DNA of 22,844 nucleotides from a virus. Both the position numbers and the translations under genes were made by a program. The notes beneath the pieces are model-generated. The model searched no databases. It saw nothing but the letters and a program-made list of their open reading frames with translations, and was not told the origin of the DNA. The stretch lies in IMG/VR virus record IMGVR_UViG_3300050821_003435, positions 1-22,844 of that record. One strand, written 5' to 3'. Within the stretch, counting starts at the first letter, position 1, and each line of letters opens with the position of its first letter. Shown piece after piece: positions 6,390 to 22,844 of the stretch.

Positions 6390-6965
6390 CTATGACAGCC
6401 TTTCAATCAACTGGTTTCTTGTCCCGTTAATGGGGAAACCTTGTTCCTTGCACATACGCTTCAGTTTGTCCGTGGAGAAATCTTCAAGGTCATATTTAGG
6501 TGCCTCGATTTCTTTCTCGTTCGCCACTTTCCCCTGCACGATTTTCGGATCGAGAGTGCGTGACAGCAGCCACATTGCCTCCGGGGGAATGTCAAGACCG
6601 GCTGCCTGTGCGGCGGCAAGAGCGTTCAACTGGTCAAGCTGCTCCTGAGCACGCTTAATGCGTTTCCTGACGAAAATACGTTCATCGGGGGTCTCCGGGG
6701 CTGCGTCCGGGGTGGAACCCCAGCACGGATCACAGTCCGCGACTCTCTCCTGAGTGGGGAGAATCCCGTTATCACGGTCCCCTGGGGTGTACCTCAAAAC
6801 GGTACGTCCCCCGCCTTTCAGGAAGATTTCGCAGCCTGGGCAGGTCAATTCGAATTCTTTAGCGGGAACACCGTTGCGGACGGGTCGAGTGTGGGTAGCA
6901 CCGCACCCTCCGGACGCAACCGGCACGGATACGCTCATCACGTCTGAGCGTGCATACAGGGACAT
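6390..6965 (-). CDS. SAP-domain protein with Cys pairs, neck region
   Basis: The 191-residue product ends with LEDFSTDKLKRMCKEQGFPI followed by NGTRNQLIERLS, a clear SAP-like helix-extended loop-helix motif (residues about 159-191) known for DNA binding. The N-terminal half has Cys at 21, 42, 45, 78 and 81 (CPGC and CDPC pairs), consistent with a zinc site. A helical linker rich in Ala and Gln joins the two parts. I chose ATG 6965-6963, preceded by AAAGGGGA. It is the first minus-strand gene after the plus-strand cassette, so it may start its own transcript. Proteins with SAP or Rho-N-like ends are often found next to connector genes in actinophages. Confidence 0.72.
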   Translation of the reverse strand: MSLYARSDVMSVSVPVASGGCGATHTRPVRNGVPAKEFELTCPGCEIFLKGGGRTVLRYTPGDRDNGILPTQERVADCDPCWGSTPDAAPETPDERIFVRKRIKRAQEQLDQLNALAAAQAAGLDIPPEAMWLLSRTLDPKIVQGKVANEKEIEAPKYDLEDFSTDKLKRMCKEQGFPINGTRNQLIERLS

Positions 6966-7007
6966 CAGTTTTCCCCTTTCACGGGAATAGCAACACCCGG
7001 ACGGACG

Positions 7008-7037
7008 TTGACATGGGTACCGCAGCTCAGGTAGGCT
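7008..7037 (+). promoter_or_regulatory. Sigma70-type promoter for the plus-strand cassette
   Basis: A perfect TTGACA -35 box at 7008-7013 is followed after 18 bases by TAGGCT at 7032-7037, which keeps the most conserved first, second and last bases of the -10 box. A start of transcription near 7044 would leave a short leader before AGGAGG at 7049-7054 and the GTG start at 7058. It lies in the gap between divergent genes, exactly where a promoter is needed. No experimental support is available. Confidence 0.65.
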
Positions 7038-7057
7038 GCGGAGACTTAGGAGGAGAA

Positions 7058-7183
7058 GTGTCGGTACTGTGCAAAGCACGCCCGAACTCGTGTTTCTGCA
7101 CCTCATGTGAGGGATGCACGACGAGGACCCCGAGGAAGCATTGCGGGAAGCACAACAACGACTGCCACAAGAACTGTGATTAG
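7058..7183 (+). CDS. Cys-rich micro-protein, 41 residues
   Basis: GTG 7058-7060 has an excellent AGGAGG site four bases upstream and begins a 41-residue frame, the first gene of the plus-strand cassette. The product holds eight Cys and three His: one Cys near the start, three in SCFCTSC, one in the following EGC, one in KHCG and two in DCHKNC. Such density in so short a protein points to one or two zinc ions or a disulfide-stabilised fold. I do not recognise the family. It ends two bases before the next gene, implying one transcript. Confidence 0.65.
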   Translation: MSVLCKARPNSCFCTSCEGCTTRTPRKHCGKHNNDCHKNCD

Positions 7184-7185
7184 CG

Positions 7186-7581
7186 ATGAGAACACCACCT
7201 GAGCTGCTCGCCTACCAGCTCCCACCCGGGAAAAGCCTTCACTCACTCGTGAAAGAGGAAAAGGAAAGGCTCCGTATCCAGCAGCCGAGGATACGTACTT
7301 CCGCGAAGGAAATCGGGGGAAGATACGGACGGCTGCTTGACGTAGCTGCGTATCAGCGGTGGGAAACCGACATGAGATACGAGCTGCTTAAACTGGATAT
7401 CCGTGAACAGATGGGGGACGCGGGAACTGCGATGTCCCGGGGCGTTCCCATTGCAACACGACGCCAGTATCCTGTTCCAGCGGAACCCGTGAAGCGAATG
7501 TGCCCGCATTGCGGGATACTCACTGAAGAATGGGGATACTGGGTGCCGGGATATGATCTGGATTCAGTGTTCCGAGTATGA
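7186..7581 (+). CDS. Unknown 131-residue protein with C-terminal CPHC
   Basis: The product is charged and helical in the N-terminal two thirds (HSLVKEEKERLRIQQPRIRT, then a helix around LDVAAYQRWETDMRYELLKL) and ends with a CPHC pair at residues 106-109 and an aromatic tail. One CxxC could make half a zinc site or be shared with a partner protein from the same operon. ATG 7186-7188 follows the previous stop by two bases, and the stop overlaps the next ATG as ATGA. There is no strong ribosome site, so coupling to the upstream gene is likely. I do not recognise the function. Confidence 0.65.
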   Translation: MRTPPELLAYQLPPGKSLHSLVKEEKERLRIQQPRIRTSAKEIGGRYGRLLDVAAYQRWETDMRYELLKLDIREQMGDAGTAMSRGVPIATRRQYPVPAEPVKRMCPHCGILTEEWGYWVPGYDLDSVFRV

Positions 7582-7793
7582 ACTTCCAGCCTTACGAAAA
7601 AACATGGCGGAACTTCAGTTACGTCCGCTACGATCCCGCGAAGTTCTCCATCAGGAACATCAATCCTCCGTACTGGTTCGCACTGGAATCCCAACGGTCC
7701 ATGATTCCCGTGGAGAAACTTCATCACCCGTTCACTGGTATCCGCTACTGGAAACTGCGGGTCGGGTTGATCGCAATCAACTGGAGGTGGTGA
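7578..7793 (+). CDS. Unknown 71-residue aromatic-rich protein
   Basis: ATG 7578-7580 overlaps the preceding stop (ATGA). The product is very rich in Trp, Tyr and Phe (NFQPYEKTWRNFSYVRYDPA and a C-terminal INWRW) with no Cys. It looks like a small beta-rich globular protein. The stop overlaps the next start as TGATG. It is the only gene of the cassette without Cys pairs. No family is recognised; the tight overlaps on both sides are the main evidence that it is real. Confidence 0.6.
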   Translation: MNFQPYEKTWRNFSYVRYDPAKFSIRNINPPYWFALESQRSMIPVEKLHHPFTGIRYWKLRVGLIAINWRW

Positions 7794-7990
7794 TGGCACT
7801 CACCAAATGCAAATACTGCACCGACCAGCATATCTGTCATCACATTTTCCCAGAGGAAACCTCAGGGGAAGTGCTGTACAACCGGCTTCATGAACTCATC
7901 GTAGACGGGAAAATCGGTGTCCCGTCTATCCCCTGGGAAGAGGTTCCTATGGAAGAGAAAACACTCTGGGATCAGGTGGCGAACACATGA
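7793..7990 (+). CDS. Small CxxC protein, 65 residues
   Basis: ATG 7793-7795 overlaps the previous stop and has GGAGG five bases upstream, which fixes this start; the frame is open further upstream but that part runs through two other genes. The product begins MALTKCKYCTDQHICHHIF, a Cys/His cluster (CKYC, then C and HH) that could bind zinc, followed by an acidic helical part (EEVPMEEKTLWDQVANT). The stop overlaps the next ATG as ATGA. The function is unknown. Confidence 0.65.
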   Translation: MALTKCKYCTDQHICHHIFPEETSGEVLYNRLHELIVDGKIGVPSIPWEEVPMEEKTLWDQVANT

Positions 7991-8301
7991 GCTGCCCCCA
8001 CGGTCGCATATCACGAGTCCGATGCGACGAATGCATGGTTCCCGGGACGTTCGGTGACTACATACTCGCCGGGGGAAACCCTAAGAACTTCACCAGTCCC
8101 GAAACACGGCTGCTGCGTGTCATCTACGGGCTGTGCCCCCTATGTGACATTCCCGATGAGCATGCCCACGGATCATGGATCAACGGGGAATGGTTTTCGC
8201 TAGCAAACTGGGCAAATCGCCCAAAAGGGCACATCGAATACGTGTACTCCGCTCAGCAAGTGGGAATACAGCACACCAGGGAGGTGTTACACTACACGTA
8301 A
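7987..8301 (+). CDS. Zinc-binding 104-residue protein, last gene of the cassette
   Basis: The product opens MSCPHGRISRVRCDEC, giving a C-P-H and a CDEC cluster. It has a second CPLCDIPDEHAHG cluster near residues 56-68, so two zinc sites are likely. The pattern LCPLCDIPDEHAHGSW, with a His pair after a Cys pair, recalls HNH or endonuclease VII-like zinc cores, but the catalytic DHCH run is missing, so I do not call a nuclease. It starts by ATGA overlap and stops only five bases before a long self-complementary sequence that probably forms the 3' end of the transcript. Confidence 0.65.
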   Translation: MSCPHGRISRVRCDECMVPGTFGDYILAGGNPKNFTSPETRLLRVIYGLCPLCDIPDEHAHGSWINGEWFSLANWANRPKGHIEYVYSAQQVGIQHTREVLHYT

Positions 8302-8305
8302 AGCC

Positions 8306-8433
8306 CCTGCCCGTGAAGGCCGCGCGGTCCCCCGAAAGGTGTGCTCCTTTACAGGGGAGTGTTTCCTGACACTACCTCGAAGGGGATGGGACGGGATTCA
8401 CCGACGCTTCACCGTCCCCTCTTCACGGGCAGG
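8306..8433 (+). ncRNA. Structured RNA domain 1 (13-bp closing stem)
   Basis: Bases 8306-8318 (CCTGCCCGTGAAG) pair perfectly with 8421-8433 (CTTCACGGGCAGG), closing about 100 bases. Inside, 8388-8394 (GGGACGG) pairs with 8412-8418 (CCGTCCC). Shorter stems are possible at 8344-8347 with 8356-8359, and at 8358-8362 with 8369-8373; the last two share bases, so the exact fold is open. No reading frame of useful size covers the stretch on either strand. It begins five bases after the last cassette gene, so it is either the 3' UTR of that mRNA or a processed or independent small RNA. I do not recognise a known RNA family. The pairing is directly visible; function is unknown. Confidence 0.55.
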
Positions 8434-8436
8434 CTC

Positions 8437-8524
8437 AAGGCCCTCGTACGGTAAATAAGGAGTTCCTCCCTCTCCTTAGAAGGCTCCCTCAATGAAGAGA
8501 AGCCTCCCGTACGGGGGCCTTTTT
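8437..8524 (+). terminator. Structured RNA domain 2 ending as an intrinsic terminator
   Basis: Bases 8437-8451 (AAGGCCCTCGTACGG) pair with 8507-8521 (CCGTACGGGGGCCTT) over 15 positions with one G-U pair, followed by TTT to 8524. This is a strong rho-independent terminator tail for the plus-strand cassette. Unlike a simple terminator hairpin, the stem encloses two further stems: 8456-8462 with 8472-8478 (TAAGGAG/CTCCTTA), and 8481-8485 with 8501-8505 (AGGCT/AGCCT) extended by CTC/GAG. The result is a three-way junction only three bases away from domain 1. The convergent minus-strand gene ends at the same point (8524). Confidence 0.7.
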
Positions 8525-8763
8525 CATGTCAACTGGAAACAAACCTCAGCGGGATCACCGGAAAGCAGCTTACAGAACTGCTCCCATTCAATGTTGAACT
8601 TCGCGAAATCCTCATAACATCCGATTCTCACAGGCGGGGTAAGCGTAACCTGACTCTTAGATATCGGGTTAACAGCGACAGTAAGCTCACATTCAATCCA
8701 CCTGAACCCCTTGAAATCATCCATAGGGTCAGGTTTCTGCGTTACCACTCGACGCCTGCTCAT
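8524..8763 (-). CDS. Unknown 79-residue protein
   Basis: ATG 8763-8761 lies just after the TAG of the preceding zinc protein gene. I prefer this to a longer upstream frame that would run through that gene. The product (MSRRRVVTQKPDPMDDFKGF...) has alternating strands (WIECELTVAVNP, SQVTLTPPVRIGC) followed by a helix (DFAKFNIEWEQFCKLLSG), which suggests a compact alpha/beta protein. No known motif is visible. It is the last minus-strand gene before the plus-strand cassette, and its stop meets the cassette terminator. Confidence 0.6.
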   Translation of the reverse strand: MSRRRVVTQKPDPMDDFKGFRWIECELTVAVNPISKSQVTLTPPVRIGCYEDFAKFNIEWEQFCKLLSGDPAEVCFQLT

Positions 8764-8764
8764 A

Positions 8765-9121
8765 CTAAGGGATTCTCGCTCCGTTCCTGTCTGTCGGGGG
8801 AGGCGGAAGTTCAACGTCAGCTTCCGGAACTGTGGGTCCATGACACTTATTACACTCCATCGTCCAGCTTTGCCACAAGCGCATGCAACTCTGGCACCAG
8901 CGACCTTGTTTCCTCTTATCGGCAATGAACTGCTTCTCCGGGCCAGCGTCAACAAGACCGGCAGAAGCATAATCCTGATTGGCGAGTTTCTTCAACGCTC
9001 TCGCATCCTGAGGGTCCGTGGGATCAAGATTCACATATGAACCCGGACCCCGTTCAGCCTTATATTTCTTATCCCCGTCCGCGAAACCAGCGCAGCCAGG
9101 CGGCAAATTAATCTTAGTCAC
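8765..9121 (-). CDS. Zinc-ribbon protein, 118 residues
   Basis: The C-terminal half carries CQSC (76-79) and CNKC (90-93) separated by ten residues, a classic zinc ribbon. The N-terminal half holds Lys/Asp-rich segments, with DPTDPQDARALKKLANQDYA resembling the helical part of small phage head or neck proteins. The tail ends in a run of prolines. GTG 9121-9119 starts just after the previous stop, with AGGAA upstream. The gene lies between a beta-rich surface protein and a small protein. Function is not recognised. Confidence 0.65.
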   Translation of the reverse strand: MTKINLPPGCAGFADGDKKYKAERGPGSYVNLDPTDPQDARALKKLANQDYASAGLVDAGPEKQFIADKRKQGRWCQSCMRLWQSWTMECNKCHGPTVPEADVELPPPPTDRNGARIP

Positions 9122-17096: not shown

Positions 17097-17143
17097 ACAA
17101 CTCCAATTTGCTGTAGGATTGTGCTGAAAGGAGGTGCAGCACA

Positions 17144-17704
17144 ATGCCTAGCGCCACACGATTTGAAGAAACTGATGACCTTGAAAACTCCAAGATCTGC
17201 ACCATCTGCAAAAAGCGCCTATCATATGAGGCGTTCCATAAGAACAAATCCAAGAAGGATGGCTTGCAGACACGTTGCCGCAACTGTTACCGAGACTGGT
17301 ACAACCAGAGATACCAGTCAAACCCTGAGTTCCGGGAGAAACGCAAGCAGCATTTCTCCAAGTTCTATGAAGAGAAATATCCCAGCCGACGCGAGCAGCA
17401 TAGTAACGCTCGACTGTTGTACAAGTACGGATTGACCGTTGAGGACTTCGAGAAACTATCTATCGCACAGGATCATCTTTGCGCGATTTGTCGTCAACCG
17501 CCTCGCGGGAAGAAACGCTTGTCAGTTGACCATTGTCATGAGACAATGGCTATCAGAGGTCTGCTTTGCGATCCGTGCAATACAGGTCTTGGCATGTTCC
17601 GAGATGATCCGATGCTATTGCACTCGGCAATAGCTTATTTGACGAGTGGAGGTGATAACGATGTTGGAACTCTTCTGTCGCCAGATATTGGCGATGCTTT
17701 TTGA
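17144..17704 (+). CDS. HNH endonuclease, recombination endonuclease VII-like
   Basis: The 186-residue product has an N-terminal zinc ribbon (CTIC at 19-22, CRNC at 45-48), a Lys/Arg-rich helical middle and a nuclease core at 96-166. The core is YGLTVEDFEKL, then HLCAICRQPP, LSVDHCHE (residues 127-134) and LLCDPCNTGLGMF. DHCH plus the two Cys pairs are the zinc and active-site pattern of T4 endonuclease VII-like HNH nucleases. All key residues are present. AAAGGAGG a few bases before ATG 17144 is a very strong ribosome site. The gene lies opposite to the flanking structural genes and between two of them, as free-standing homing endonucleases do. A packaging or branch-resolving role is also possible. 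TAGGAT at 17114-17119 could be a -10 box but no good -35 is seen. Confidence 0.88.
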   Translation: MPSATRFEETDDLENSKICTICKKRLSYEAFHKNKSKKDGLQTRCRNCYRDWYNQRYQSNPEFREKRKQHFSKFYEEKYPSRREQHSNARLLYKYGLTVEDFEKLSIAQDHLCAICRQPPRGKKRLSVDHCHETMAIRGLLCDPCNTGLGMFRDDPMLLHSAIAYLTSGGDNDVGTLLSPDIGDAF

Positions 17705-18394: not shown

Positions 18395-18739
18395 TTAGGC
18401 TACAGAAGTGAAGACAGCAACACCAGTGAAAGGCGCAGCCGTCCCGGACAGAACATTCGAAACCTCAGTCCACACACCCACAGGACTGCGGTTATCTGAA
18501 ACACCGACAGTTGTAGCCTCAACAGTGGAAGCACCCGCAACTTCAAGGTTCGGGAAGTTACCACTGCTGTCAGAGGTCTGTGAAACGTTGCTGTCAGCAT
18601 CTGTAACAGTGACAGTCACCACGCTGGTGACATCAGCTACAGAAACGTCAGTGGACGTATAGTTGATAGTGAGGGTGATCGTAGCACCCGAGTTGTAAAC
18701 AGGCTGATCGAAAGACCAGCTTGTAATATCCAATGCCAT
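18395..18739 (-). CDS. Ig-like beta protein, 114 residues
   Basis: The product is charge-poor and made of regular strands (SGATITLTINYTSTD, VADVTSVVTVTVTDADSNVS, GASTVEATTVGVSDN, GVAVFTSVA), as in immunoglobulin-like domains of phage surface proteins. It has no signal peptide and no Cys. ATG 18739-18737 has AAAGGAG upstream. It lies among small head-region genes upstream of the protease, so a decoration or minor capsid role is plausible. The strand pattern is clear; the exact fold is not proven. Confidence 0.62.
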   Translation of the reverse strand: MALDITSWSFDQPVYNSGATITLTINYTSTDVSVADVTSVVTVTVTDADSNVSQTSDSSGNFPNLEVAGASTVEATTVGVSDNRSPVGVWTEVSNVLSGTAAPFTGVAVFTSVA

Positions 18740-18755
18740 ACTGCTCCTTTTATTG

Positions 18756-18770
18756 TTGAAGGACCTTCAA
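18756..18770. promoter_or_regulatory. Near-perfect 15-bp palindrome before the Ig-like gene
   Basis: TTGAAGGACCTTCAA is an inverted repeat of seven bases on each side of one centre base. It lies in the only sizeable gap (18740-18777) among these small genes, about 17 bases upstream of ATG 18739. It may be a protein binding site or an RNA stem that affects translation. It could also be chance. Confidence 0.3.
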
Positions 18771-18777
18771 ATCTATG

Positions 18778-18921
18778 TTACCACCAACGGTGGAACCACC
18801 GGGATGGCGGCCAAAAACGTTTCTTTGAACGTACCGTGAACGTTCCGGTTCTAGTCGCGTGACTTTTCTTATCCCGCACAACCATAGTCACAAAATATGT
18901 TTTCTTCTTACGCCTGAACAT
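18778..18921 (-). CDS. Very small basic Trp-rich protein, 47 residues
   Basis: ATG 18921-18919 overlaps the preceding TGA (TGATG), and the frame ends at TAA 18780-18778. The product MFRRKKKTYFVTMVVRDKKS continues with alternating strand residues and ends FWPPSRWFHRWW. It is highly basic and Trp-rich, with no Cys. The overlap and the lack of any other frame support it as a gene, although its ribosome site is weak. Nucleic acid or membrane binding is possible; the function is unknown. Confidence 0.5.
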   Translation of the reverse strand: MFRRKKKTYFVTMVVRDKKSHATRTGTFTVRSKKRFWPPSRWFHRWW

Positions 18922-20073: not shown

Positions 20074-22844
20074 TTATTTGTTCCTCGGGTCGGACCCCGA
20101 ATGAACTTGCGACGAATGAGTTTCCTCAGCCGCCATCCTGTCCTTACCGTCAATAATACCAAGATACGCGAGAACTGGCATCCCCAGCTTCTTACGAGCC
20201 AGCGCACGATGATGCCCGTCAATGATGATAGCTTTAGGGCTGTCATTATCCTGGATCGCGATGCTAGGGTTCGTGTGCCCCGTGTTCGCTTTAATGTCTT
20301 TCGCGAACCGGTTGACGGCATCCATCTGATGTGTAGCAGCCCACTCTTCAATGTCATGCGTGTCGATGCGATCCCATGGGAGATTCACCGGACCCACCCA
20401 CCGTGCACGTCTCACCCAGCCGATCGCATTTTCAGGGAAATTCGACCGCATCAAATTCAGCACATGTTCAGGATCAACAGGATTAGGATCAGCGTAATCC
20501 GAAGGTCCCCCAACACCTTTCTTCCCTGGGGAACGATACGCGTTCTCTCCGTTCGGAAGCTCAACCGGGACAACAAGCGCCGGATCGAACGCAGGTTCCC
20601 CGCCCTCAGAATGCGGTTCATACGGATGCGGGGTAACCGCTGCTGTACTCCCCACAACAGGCCGCAAAGTACCCATCCCGGTGACATGCGTATCACTGCC
20701 TTTCCCCACGGGGGGGACACCAGTCAAACCCCCGACACTGCCGCCACCTGATTCAGTACCGCCATTAGTGTTCTGCGGGAGCGGGGGTTGCTGTGAAGGA
20801 TTCTTCGAAGGTCCTTTATTGGGTTTCCGTCCCCGTGTCGGGAAATCCCCCGGTTCCTCCCCCCCGTCATAAACGCGAGTGTGTGTTCCCTCCGACATGT
20901 CATCTTGAGGTTGTGAAGGAGCAGGAGTGTTCTGTGCAGGATTCCGTGAAGGCGGTTCAGGTGTCTCCGCAGTCCCGTAATGCGGAGCTTCACTGCCATC
21001 AGACCTACGCGGATACGGCCACCGTGCACCGGCAGGATACAAAGGCTCATCGCGTGGTTTCACTGTCAGCATTTCACCTTGTTCCGTCACCGCAACCTGC
21101 TTAGCGACCTCATCCCATTCAATGTTCCCCCACTGACGTTCAAAATTCGGCTGCAACGGAAGTTTCTTAATTTCCTTACCGGTGAACCATGCGCAGCCAG
21201 CGGTTTCATGCGGGGTAGCCCCGTTCATTCGCGGGAGGAACAGGGAAGGAGCATCACACAGGAAAATATGTATCAGCCGGTCATCATTTTGTTCCGTATA
21301 ATGCGCAACAGGGTCCAGCAACGGAATATCCCCGAGTTCCTCAGTGGATTCCCGCAACGCTGTCTCCCACGGACCCTCACCCGTATGAGATGTCCCCCCG
21401 GGAAGACCCCACGTCCCAGGATGATTCACATCCTCCCCGCGTTTCTGCAACAGGAACACTTCTTTCCCGTCCGCCATGGAACGGTAAAGGATAAACGCGC
21501 ACATCGACGGGTCTTCCGCTTTCCCGATATGTGCCTGCGGGGGTTCCACATTCACCCCGTCAGGAGCAGGGACACACCGGCAGTCAGGATGGAACGGGCC
21601 ACCCAAACCCCCGGAGGGGAAAATAGCGTCCAACGGGATAACACCCTCATTTTTAGCGGTCTTGCACACATCACATTTATCGTCAGGGGCGACAAGCAGA
21701 TGCTTATGAGTCACACCGTTGTCCCGGTATGCTTGGATAGCGCCTGCGTTCATCGCGCGGGCTACTTCAGTGCGGGAAATGATTTCCGCGCGTGACTTCG
21801 CGTTTTTCAACCCGGTGCGGGCGATCTGCTGAAGCCAATGCTGACCTTCAGTGTCAATGAAAGCATTCAAAGCTTCACTGCCTGCACCGTCAATGTTAAA
21901 ATCAGGTTCCCCGCCTGTGACCAGCGACTTACCTGCCGTATACCCGAGATCCCATGCTTCCGTCCACAACGGGCTTAGTGTTTCAAGGAAAGTGCCATGC
22001 ACTTCCTCCGCGATAAGACCACGGAGAGTAGCGTTGTCCACGAACATTTTCCCGGAAGCAGCAGCCTTGCGGATAGTGTCAGCTTTCACTTCCGCTGCGT
22101 TAAACGCAGCTCCGATCTGCTGCTTATAAGCCCCGACGAGACCAAGGTCACGTTCCCATCCGGGCCACTGCTTAGCTTTCCCGATAACAGGTCCCTGAAC
22201 TGAAAGCATAACCGGGGGAATGTCAGCCCACGGAGCTTCTGGGAGTTCATCAGGGATCTGGCTTGAAATACGATCCACGGCAACATCCAGAAGGACACCC
22301 TTAGCGATATCCTCCGCGATCATCGACAACTCACGGGGCGTGATAGAAACAGGTTCCCACGTGGAAATCATCCGGCCTTTACGCAAATGCCTTTTCAACG
22401 CGTCCAGTTCAGCGACAGCACCCTTCTTCCGTGACCCGGCGACACTAGATCGGCTGGGTGTTCCCCCTGTCCTCGGGGTGGGGGACTGGATAGCACCTGA
22501 AGCAGCGGAATGCCCCGGCGTCAACGATTCACGATGCGGGCTTACAGGAGCGGGGTGTGAACCATTCGGTTTCGTTTGCCCCCCAGCTCTGATCGCTGGC
22601 TGCTTCGTTTTAGGAGCAGCGCCACCAGGAGATCTCTGTCCCGAATTTGTAGACTGCGTACGGTTGCTTGATTTCTTCTTAGGTCCAGATGATGAACCAG
22701 AAGACTGGTTGTTGCCCTGCATCGCCATGCGGAGAAGTTCCGGTGCCATAGAGAAAGGCACAGGCCCTTGAGCAGTGAACACAACCGGTTCGGAAGTCTC
22801 CGAAAGACCCCACGGTGCCATGTCCAAACGGTCCCGGACCTCGT
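20074..22844 (-). CDS. Portal-end/MuF head protein fused to Nudix and ParB-like domains (5' cut)
   Basis: The frame is open to the right edge and gives at least 922 residues. The first part seen (MAPWGLSETSEPVVFTAQGP) looks like the end of a portal protein, so a portal-MuF fusion is likely. Numbered from TTG 22827, residues 40-135 are a Ser/Gly/Pro linker. Residues 235-425 are a MuF domain (ISRTEVARAMNAGAIQAY, CDVC, FHPDCRC). Residues 440-560 are Nudix, with box G-x5-E-x7-RE-x2-EE-x-G at 478-499. Residues 610-760 are a second low-complexity linker. Residues 795-895 are ParB-like, with AIIIDGHHRALARKKLGMP. MuF proteins join the head during assembly and may be injected. The added domains suggest carried enzymatic activity, or roles in the head. 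The domain chain is directly visible; purpose is inference. Confidence 0.82.
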   Translation of the reverse strand, partial: EVRDRLDMAPWGLSETSEPVVFTAQGPVPFSMAPELLRMAMQGNNQSSGSSSGPKKKSSNRTQSTNSGQRSPGGAAPKTKQPAIRAGGQTKPNGSHPAPVSPHRESLTPGHSAASGAIQSPTPRTGGTPSRSSVAGSRKKGAVAELDALKRHLRKGRMISTWEPVSITPRELSMIAEDIAKGVLLDVAVDRISSQIPDELPEAPWADIPPVMLSVQGPVIGKAKQWPGWERDLGLVGAYKQQIGAAFNAAEVKADTIRKAAASGKMFVDNATLRGLIAEEVHGTFLETLSPLWTEAWDLGYTAGKSLVTGGEPDFNIDGAGSEALNAFIDTEGQHWLQQIARTGLKNAKSRAEIISRTEVARAMNAGAIQAYRDNGVTHKHLLVAPDDKCDVCKTAKNEGVIPLDAIFPSGGLGGPFHPDCRCVPAPDGVNVEPPQAHIGKAEDPSMCAFILYRSMADGKEVFLLQKRGEDVNHPGTWGLPGGTSHTGEGPWETALRESTEELGDIPLLDPVAHYTEQNDDRLIHIFLCDAPSLFLPRMNGATPHETAGCAWFTGKEIKKLPLQPNFERQWGNIEWDEVAKQVAVTEQGEMLTVKPRDEPLYPAGARWPYPRRSDGSEAPHYGTAETPEPPSRNPAQNTPAPSQPQDDMSEGTHTRVYDGGEEPGDFPTRGRKPNKGPSKNPSQQPPLPQNTNGGTESGGGSVGGLTGVPPVGKGSDTHVTGMGTLRPVVGSTAAVTPHPYEPHSEGGEPAFDPALVVPVELPNGENAYRSPGKKGVGGPSDYADPNPVDPEHVLNLMRSNFPENAIGWVRRARWVGPVNLPWDRIDTHDIEEWAATHQMDAVNRFAKDIKANTGHTNPSIAIQDNDSPKAIIIDGHHRALARKKLGMPVLAYLGIIDGKDRMAAEETHSSQVHSGSDPRNK

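Follow-up and report, generated by a model that had tools for sequence, protein, structure and literature searches.

The window, the whole 22.8-kb stretch of DNA analysed here, is a virus fragment from a soil phage, with 77 related loci in viral contigs by its capsid protein. Between two of its minus-strand genes, and opposite to the direction of the virion genes, lies a plus-strand unit (7008-8524) composed, in this order, of a promoter, five short and mostly Cys-rich genes, and two folded domains, named domain 1 and domain 2 below. The genes and the promoter of this region are:

6390..7106, minus strand: conserved gene with a SAP domain match, one flank of the insertion slot, with homologues in 56/78 loci
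7008..7037, plus strand: promoter of the unit, TTGACA-18 nt-TAGGCT, from the sequence
7058..7183, plus strand: small Cys-rich ORF of 41 aa with a GTG start, preceded by AGGAGGAG
7186..7581, plus strand: ORF of 131 aa with a zinc-finger-like C-terminus and homologues in the related loci L014, L011, and L028
7578..7793, plus strand: ORF of 71 aa, with start/stop overlap with both neighbours
7793..7990, plus strand: CxxC/H-rich ORF of 65 aa with a 44% identical homologue in L014
7987..8301, plus strand: CxxC/H-rich ORF of 104 aa, the last gene before the RNA domains
8524..8970, minus strand: convergent ORF (longest start); for a shorter form, 8524-8784, there are homologues in L014 and L002
8765..9121, minus strand: conserved gene, the other flank of the slot, with homologues in 60/78 loci

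The inserted unit

The start given for the SAP-domain gene is the longest one and is probably too far upstream, while the start of the 41-aa ORF at 7058 is a putative one, judged from the ribosome-binding-like sequence AGGAGGAG. The 131-aa protein has 39-44% identity with its homologues in the three relatives. None of the small genes of the unit has a Pfam or PHROG match, and no convincing homologue of the 7987-8301 gene was found.

The unit occupies a variable insertion site between conserved genes: from 56 relatives having both flank genes, the slot is empty in 30 (gap of at most 128 nt, or overlap) and filled in 26, with inserts ranging from 364 to 5027 nt. A promoter of the form TTGAC[A/T]-(17-18)-TANNNT reading into the insert was found in 7 of the 26 relatives with inserts longer than 300 nt (0.08 expected) and in none of the 30 with an empty slot. 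Phage morons are horizontally acquired, independently transcribed elements (PMC6469090). Since the plus-strand unit has its own promoter, at least at the sequence level, coupled small genes, and a terminator, and since the promoter occurs only with inserts, we consider it a moron.

Two other regions of the window deserve mention. An Endonuclease VII-like gene (17144-17704, plus strand) lies within the minus-strand virion operon and is possibly another insert, and a long minus-strand ORF (20074-22827) joins a Mu-F-like region and a NUDIX domain in a single frame.

Two folded domains at the 3' end of the moron

On neither strand of the window does another 220-nt segment fold as stably as 8306-8525, the lowest of 226 tiled segments on each (z about -6.4 and -7.0). 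Compared with dinucleotide shuffles, z is -6.2 for 8290-8540, -4.4 for domain 1 alone, and -6.2 for domain 2 alone, with 0/200 shuffles as stable in all three cases. Because the reverse strand folds equally well, the strand is set only by the T-run and the gene order. The structural features are:

8306..8433, plus strand: domain 1, an RNA domain closed by a 13-bp stem (fold z -4.4, helix list)
8306..8318, plus strand: 5' arm of the domain 1 closing stem (helix list)
8421..8433, plus strand: 3' arm of the domain 1 closing stem (helix list)
8358..8373, plus strand: inner hairpin of domain 1, AGUGUU/GACACU (8358-8363/8368-8373), mean pair probability 0.97
8381..8420, plus strand: 3' hairpin of domain 1 (GAAGG...CCU), 8381-8394/8401-8420, pair probability 0.75-0.80
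8437..8521, plus strand: domain 2, a branched terminator stem of 15 pairs with two inner hairpins (z -6.2)
8502..8518, plus strand: alternative simple terminator hairpin (pattern scan)
8520..8524, plus strand: terminator T-run TTTTT (sequence)

The closing stem of domain 1 is a perfect 13-bp helix, CCUGCCCGUGAAG/CUUCACGGGCAGG, with a mean pair probability of 0.94. Four enclosed hairpins are predicted, more than the preliminary description had listed; according to the model the one at 8358-8373 is the only near-certain hairpin among them, and we are fairly sure of the one at 8381-8420, which abuts the closing stem without a spacer in the predicted fold. DNA of this kind has, by chance, a stem of at least 12 pairs at this spacing roughly every 9 kb (164 in 1.39 Mb of relatives vs 149 in shuffled sequence), so the 13-bp stem alone is unremarkable. 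What is notable about domain 1 is its place and its whole fold. A pattern scan gave no sigma-70-like site just upstream of it that would speak for the independent small RNA raised in the preliminary description, and it may still be processed from the mRNA.

Domain 2 follows after a CTC spacer (8434-8436). Its stem (8437-8451/8507-8521) has 15 pairs, one of them G-U, with a mean pair probability of 0.98, and encloses the hairpins 8456-8462/8472-8478 and 8481-8490/8497-8505. In its sequence, domain 2 is an intrinsic (Rho-independent) terminator, a stable G+C-rich hairpin downstream of a gene with a T-run directly after it, and it would be expected to act as one. As a terminator it is nothing unusual.

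No plausible gene crosses 8306-8524 in the ORF list, where a 64-aa open frame (8175-8369) merely overlaps the 7987-8301 gene out of frame. No Rfam 15 family matches the element at the gathering score, only chance-level matches appear over 8250-8560 at permissive thresholds, and ARAGORN returned no tRNA or tmRNA. The preliminary description, which had seen two adjacent stems of 13 bp and 15 pairs, the second with two more stems inside and a T-run, in a stretch free of reading frames at the end of a phage cassette, thus holds well in these respects, the cassette end being the 3' end of the moron. Its remark that there is more structure than a terminator requires is also borne out, since domain 2 is already a terminator and domain 1 comes in addition, and its failure to recognise any known RNA class agrees with the Rfam comparison.

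RNA domains in the slot of related phages

No sequence similar to domain 1 was found by blastn in phages and plasmids, nor any sequence homologue by blastn and nhmmer in about 77 relatives. A covariance model built from domain 1 alone (R2) recovered, in 1.4 Mb, domain 1 itself, its own reverse strand, and chance matches only, and no convincing covariation was found. Selection on the domain 1 structure is therefore not demonstrated. The preliminary description had made its case depend on conservation together with the cassette, and at the sequence level this expectation largely fails, domain 1 being absent where the cassette genes are homologous. L011 has a homologous moron gene, yet only a plain terminator at the place of domain 1, and in L014 and L028, also with homologous cassette genes, a different RNA family occupies that place.

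L014 has two moron genes in common with the window, as well as the minus-strand gene that adjoins them, and carries a second domain closed by 13 bp (17132-17256, z -5.7) between its member of that RNA family and a separate terminator. This is the sole candidate homologue of domain 1, and a tentative one. The R2 search that covered it ranked it first (E 0.06). In its closing stem, 8/13 pairs are identical to those of domain 1, and there are 5 double compensatory differences. This one pair of stems is the only hint of the compensatory changes that the preliminary description had called for, and it does not discriminate: domain 2 read on its reverse strand outscores the L014 domain (25.7 vs 17.7 bits), and 3 of 95 stems, counting that of L014, match at 8/13 pairs. 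Because these controls score as well, we do not claim homology.

In eight promoter-bearing morons, that of the window included (8.6 kb, moron strand, stems closing 45-180 nt), 7 stems of at least 13 pairs were counted, where the remainder of these and of near-related loci predicts 0.49; the Poisson p of about 1e-6 is optimistic because the test was made after several of the domains had been seen and because one of the stems (L012) falls in coding sequence. Four of the 7 slot domains (L014, L028, and two in L002) belong to one covarying three-way-junction RNA family. The slot in related phages thus repeatedly holds RNA domains closed by 13-14-bp stems, and domain 1, thermodynamically beyond chance, lies in that slot. 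Degenerate short repeats around GGTACGGCAGGTAAGG were also observed at the moron end in L028:15990-16250 (minus strand) and L201:3335-3409 (plus strand).

The motif of the family is P1-GUYAA-P2-AAGGNCNNUCAUGAUCC-loop-GGG[G/U]AGNNGNACCUGC-P1', and its members are:

L014:17272-17370, L028:16271-16359, L002:18833-18922 and 18705-18787, minus strand: members in the slot
L155, L206, L208, L209, L210, L213, L215, L285-L289: further members

A first-pass motif, AAGGGC..CATGATCC, gave mostly chance matches in viral contigs, and a structure filter was applied. The pattern scan places the RNA in 9 viral stretches and in Actinosynnema, and the covariance model in 6 of 249 genomes of the same family (Pseudonocardiaceae). 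It lies directly behind a tRNA gene in two contigs (L210, L213) and, by inspection, upstream of HTH-type genes in L285, L286, and L270. In an alignment of 16 sequences, both partners vary in 15/20 pairs, and the share of cells that pair is 90.5%, dropping to about 40-46% on sliding by 1-3 columns; none of the shuffles equals the covariation score. At its positions in the loci holding it there was no match to any Rfam family, and a literature search found no description, although this search was limited and is not proof of novelty. This is an RNA family with strong covariation that is absent from Rfam 15 and apparently undescribed.

Ro60 genes are the usual partner of YrlA and the bacterial Y RNAs (RF02553). 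Of 50 relatives searched for Ro60 (TROVE) genes, 12 gave a match at E 1e-3 or better (11 of them over the cut-off), and none of 34 unrelated viral contigs had one. Ro60 is encoded in 5 of the 11 records bearing the three-way-junction RNA, a co-occurrence to be set against the fact that Ro60 is common in this phage group anyway. In seven Ro60 phages of other kinds the RNA was not found, and five of them have YrlA-like RNAs near Ro60. We treat the three-way-junction RNA as no more than a candidate Ro60 partner, that is, a candidate Y RNA. Even permissive thresholds gave no match of the YrlA covariance model in the window.

Several related observations were made in these contigs. Ro60 genes are located in the L222-L238 contigs (relatives of the window and family-bearing phages) and in the contig of L014, whose phage has an apparently split Ro60 gene with several open frames (L226:1-1948). 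YrlA-like RNAs with a T-arm followed by a D-arm, below the Rfam gathering score, are found in L209:4966-5079, in L213:1494-1573 and 1974-2092, and in L275, L276, L277, L279, and L281, in several cases close to Ro60 genes. In Gordonia phage Sixama (L277:6004-6425; MN484601.1), a stretch with no annotated feature gives a tmRNA match of 88 bits.

Interpretation and comparison with known systems

We suggest that the moron, inserted against the virion genes, would be transcribed independently, and that the element would form the 3' end of its transcript. The likely use of domain 2 would then be to keep plus-strand transcription from continuing as antisense RNA into the minus-strand genes that converge on it, and domain 1 would be a noncoding 3' portion of the transcript, stable and possibly processed. 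That domain 1 acts as an RNA seems most likely to us, because the slot repeatedly carries RNA domains closed by 13-14-bp stems; for the complete reading, a moron transcript ending in a self-contained folded RNA that acts as such (domain 1) and a terminator (domain 2), we see about an even chance. It is a more speculative idea, and in our view a doubtful one, that the slot serves for loading noncoding RNA cargo and that domain 1 is the first-seen member of another phage RNA class; the RNA domains counted for it are the three-way-junction family in three relatives, domain 1, and the second L014 domain.

Domain 1 could instead be a non-specific stabiliser, a structure in the 3' UTR that holds off 3'-5' exonucleases or reinforces the terminator, with neither a partner nor a conserved sequence. 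It stands directly upstream of the terminator, is highly stable, and is not conserved in sequence, and a plain terminator suffices in L011. However, domain 2 alone is already a strong terminator (z -6.2), and closed domains of the same size are over-represented in the slot and include a bona fide RNA family, both of which suggest specific RNAs. We regard the stabiliser as a real possibility, although one that falls short of probable. The same slot, 13-14 pairs in the closing stem, and a 3' hairpin that has a GAAGG/CCU base and abuts this stem without a spacer would fit a strongly diverged member of the three-way-junction family, as in L014, L002, and L028, but domain 1 has neither the invariant CAYGA internal loop with its flanking paired core nor the GUYAA junction, and the models of the family, R1 and R3, give no match at 8306-8433 with filters off. 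Only the general layout is in common, and we rejected this very unlikely assignment.

The preliminary description also proposed a regulatory element for the upstream zinc-protein genes, and several CxxC/H-rich small proteins are indeed encoded beside the RNA, so that a zinc-finger-like moron protein might bind domain 1 and control its own transcript. Domain 1 is not kept with these genes, though, since L014 has two of them with a different first RNA domain; the proposal is not supported, and we consider it highly improbable. A feature at the DNA level, such as a small inverted-repeat mobile element or a recombination site, would account for the terminal inverted repeats, 13 bp each, that flank about 100 nt and for the CCTGYCC/GGRCAGG ends common to domain 1 and L014. 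No second copy exists in the window, relatives, phages, or plasmids searched, and the number of matching pairs with L014 is one that other stems reach, which makes this explanation scarcely credible.

Morons are catalogued as protein genes. If the slot is regularly used for folded RNAs, the accessory cargo of phages would include RNA genes that protein-based annotation misses. The three-way-junction RNA offers a directly testable target, being present in soil phages, in two phage contigs beside tRNAs, and in chromosomes of Pseudonocardiaceae.

Like a Rho-independent terminator, domain 2 lies behind the last gene of the unit and has a G+C-rich stem with TTTTT directly after it, but unlike a simple one its stem encloses two further hairpins and has an alternative shorter pairing (8502-8518). 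The element resembles YrlA and the bacterial Y RNAs (RF02553) as a structured phage RNA and differs in having no match to the YrlA model. With the three-way-junction RNA of three relatives, domain 1 shares its size, the length of the closing stem, and the abutting 3' hairpin, but not the conserved core and junction or a model match. The unit as a whole, with promoter, short genes, and terminator against the surrounding operon and variably present among relatives, resembles a phage moron (PMC6469090), and differs by the extra folded RNA domain before the terminator.
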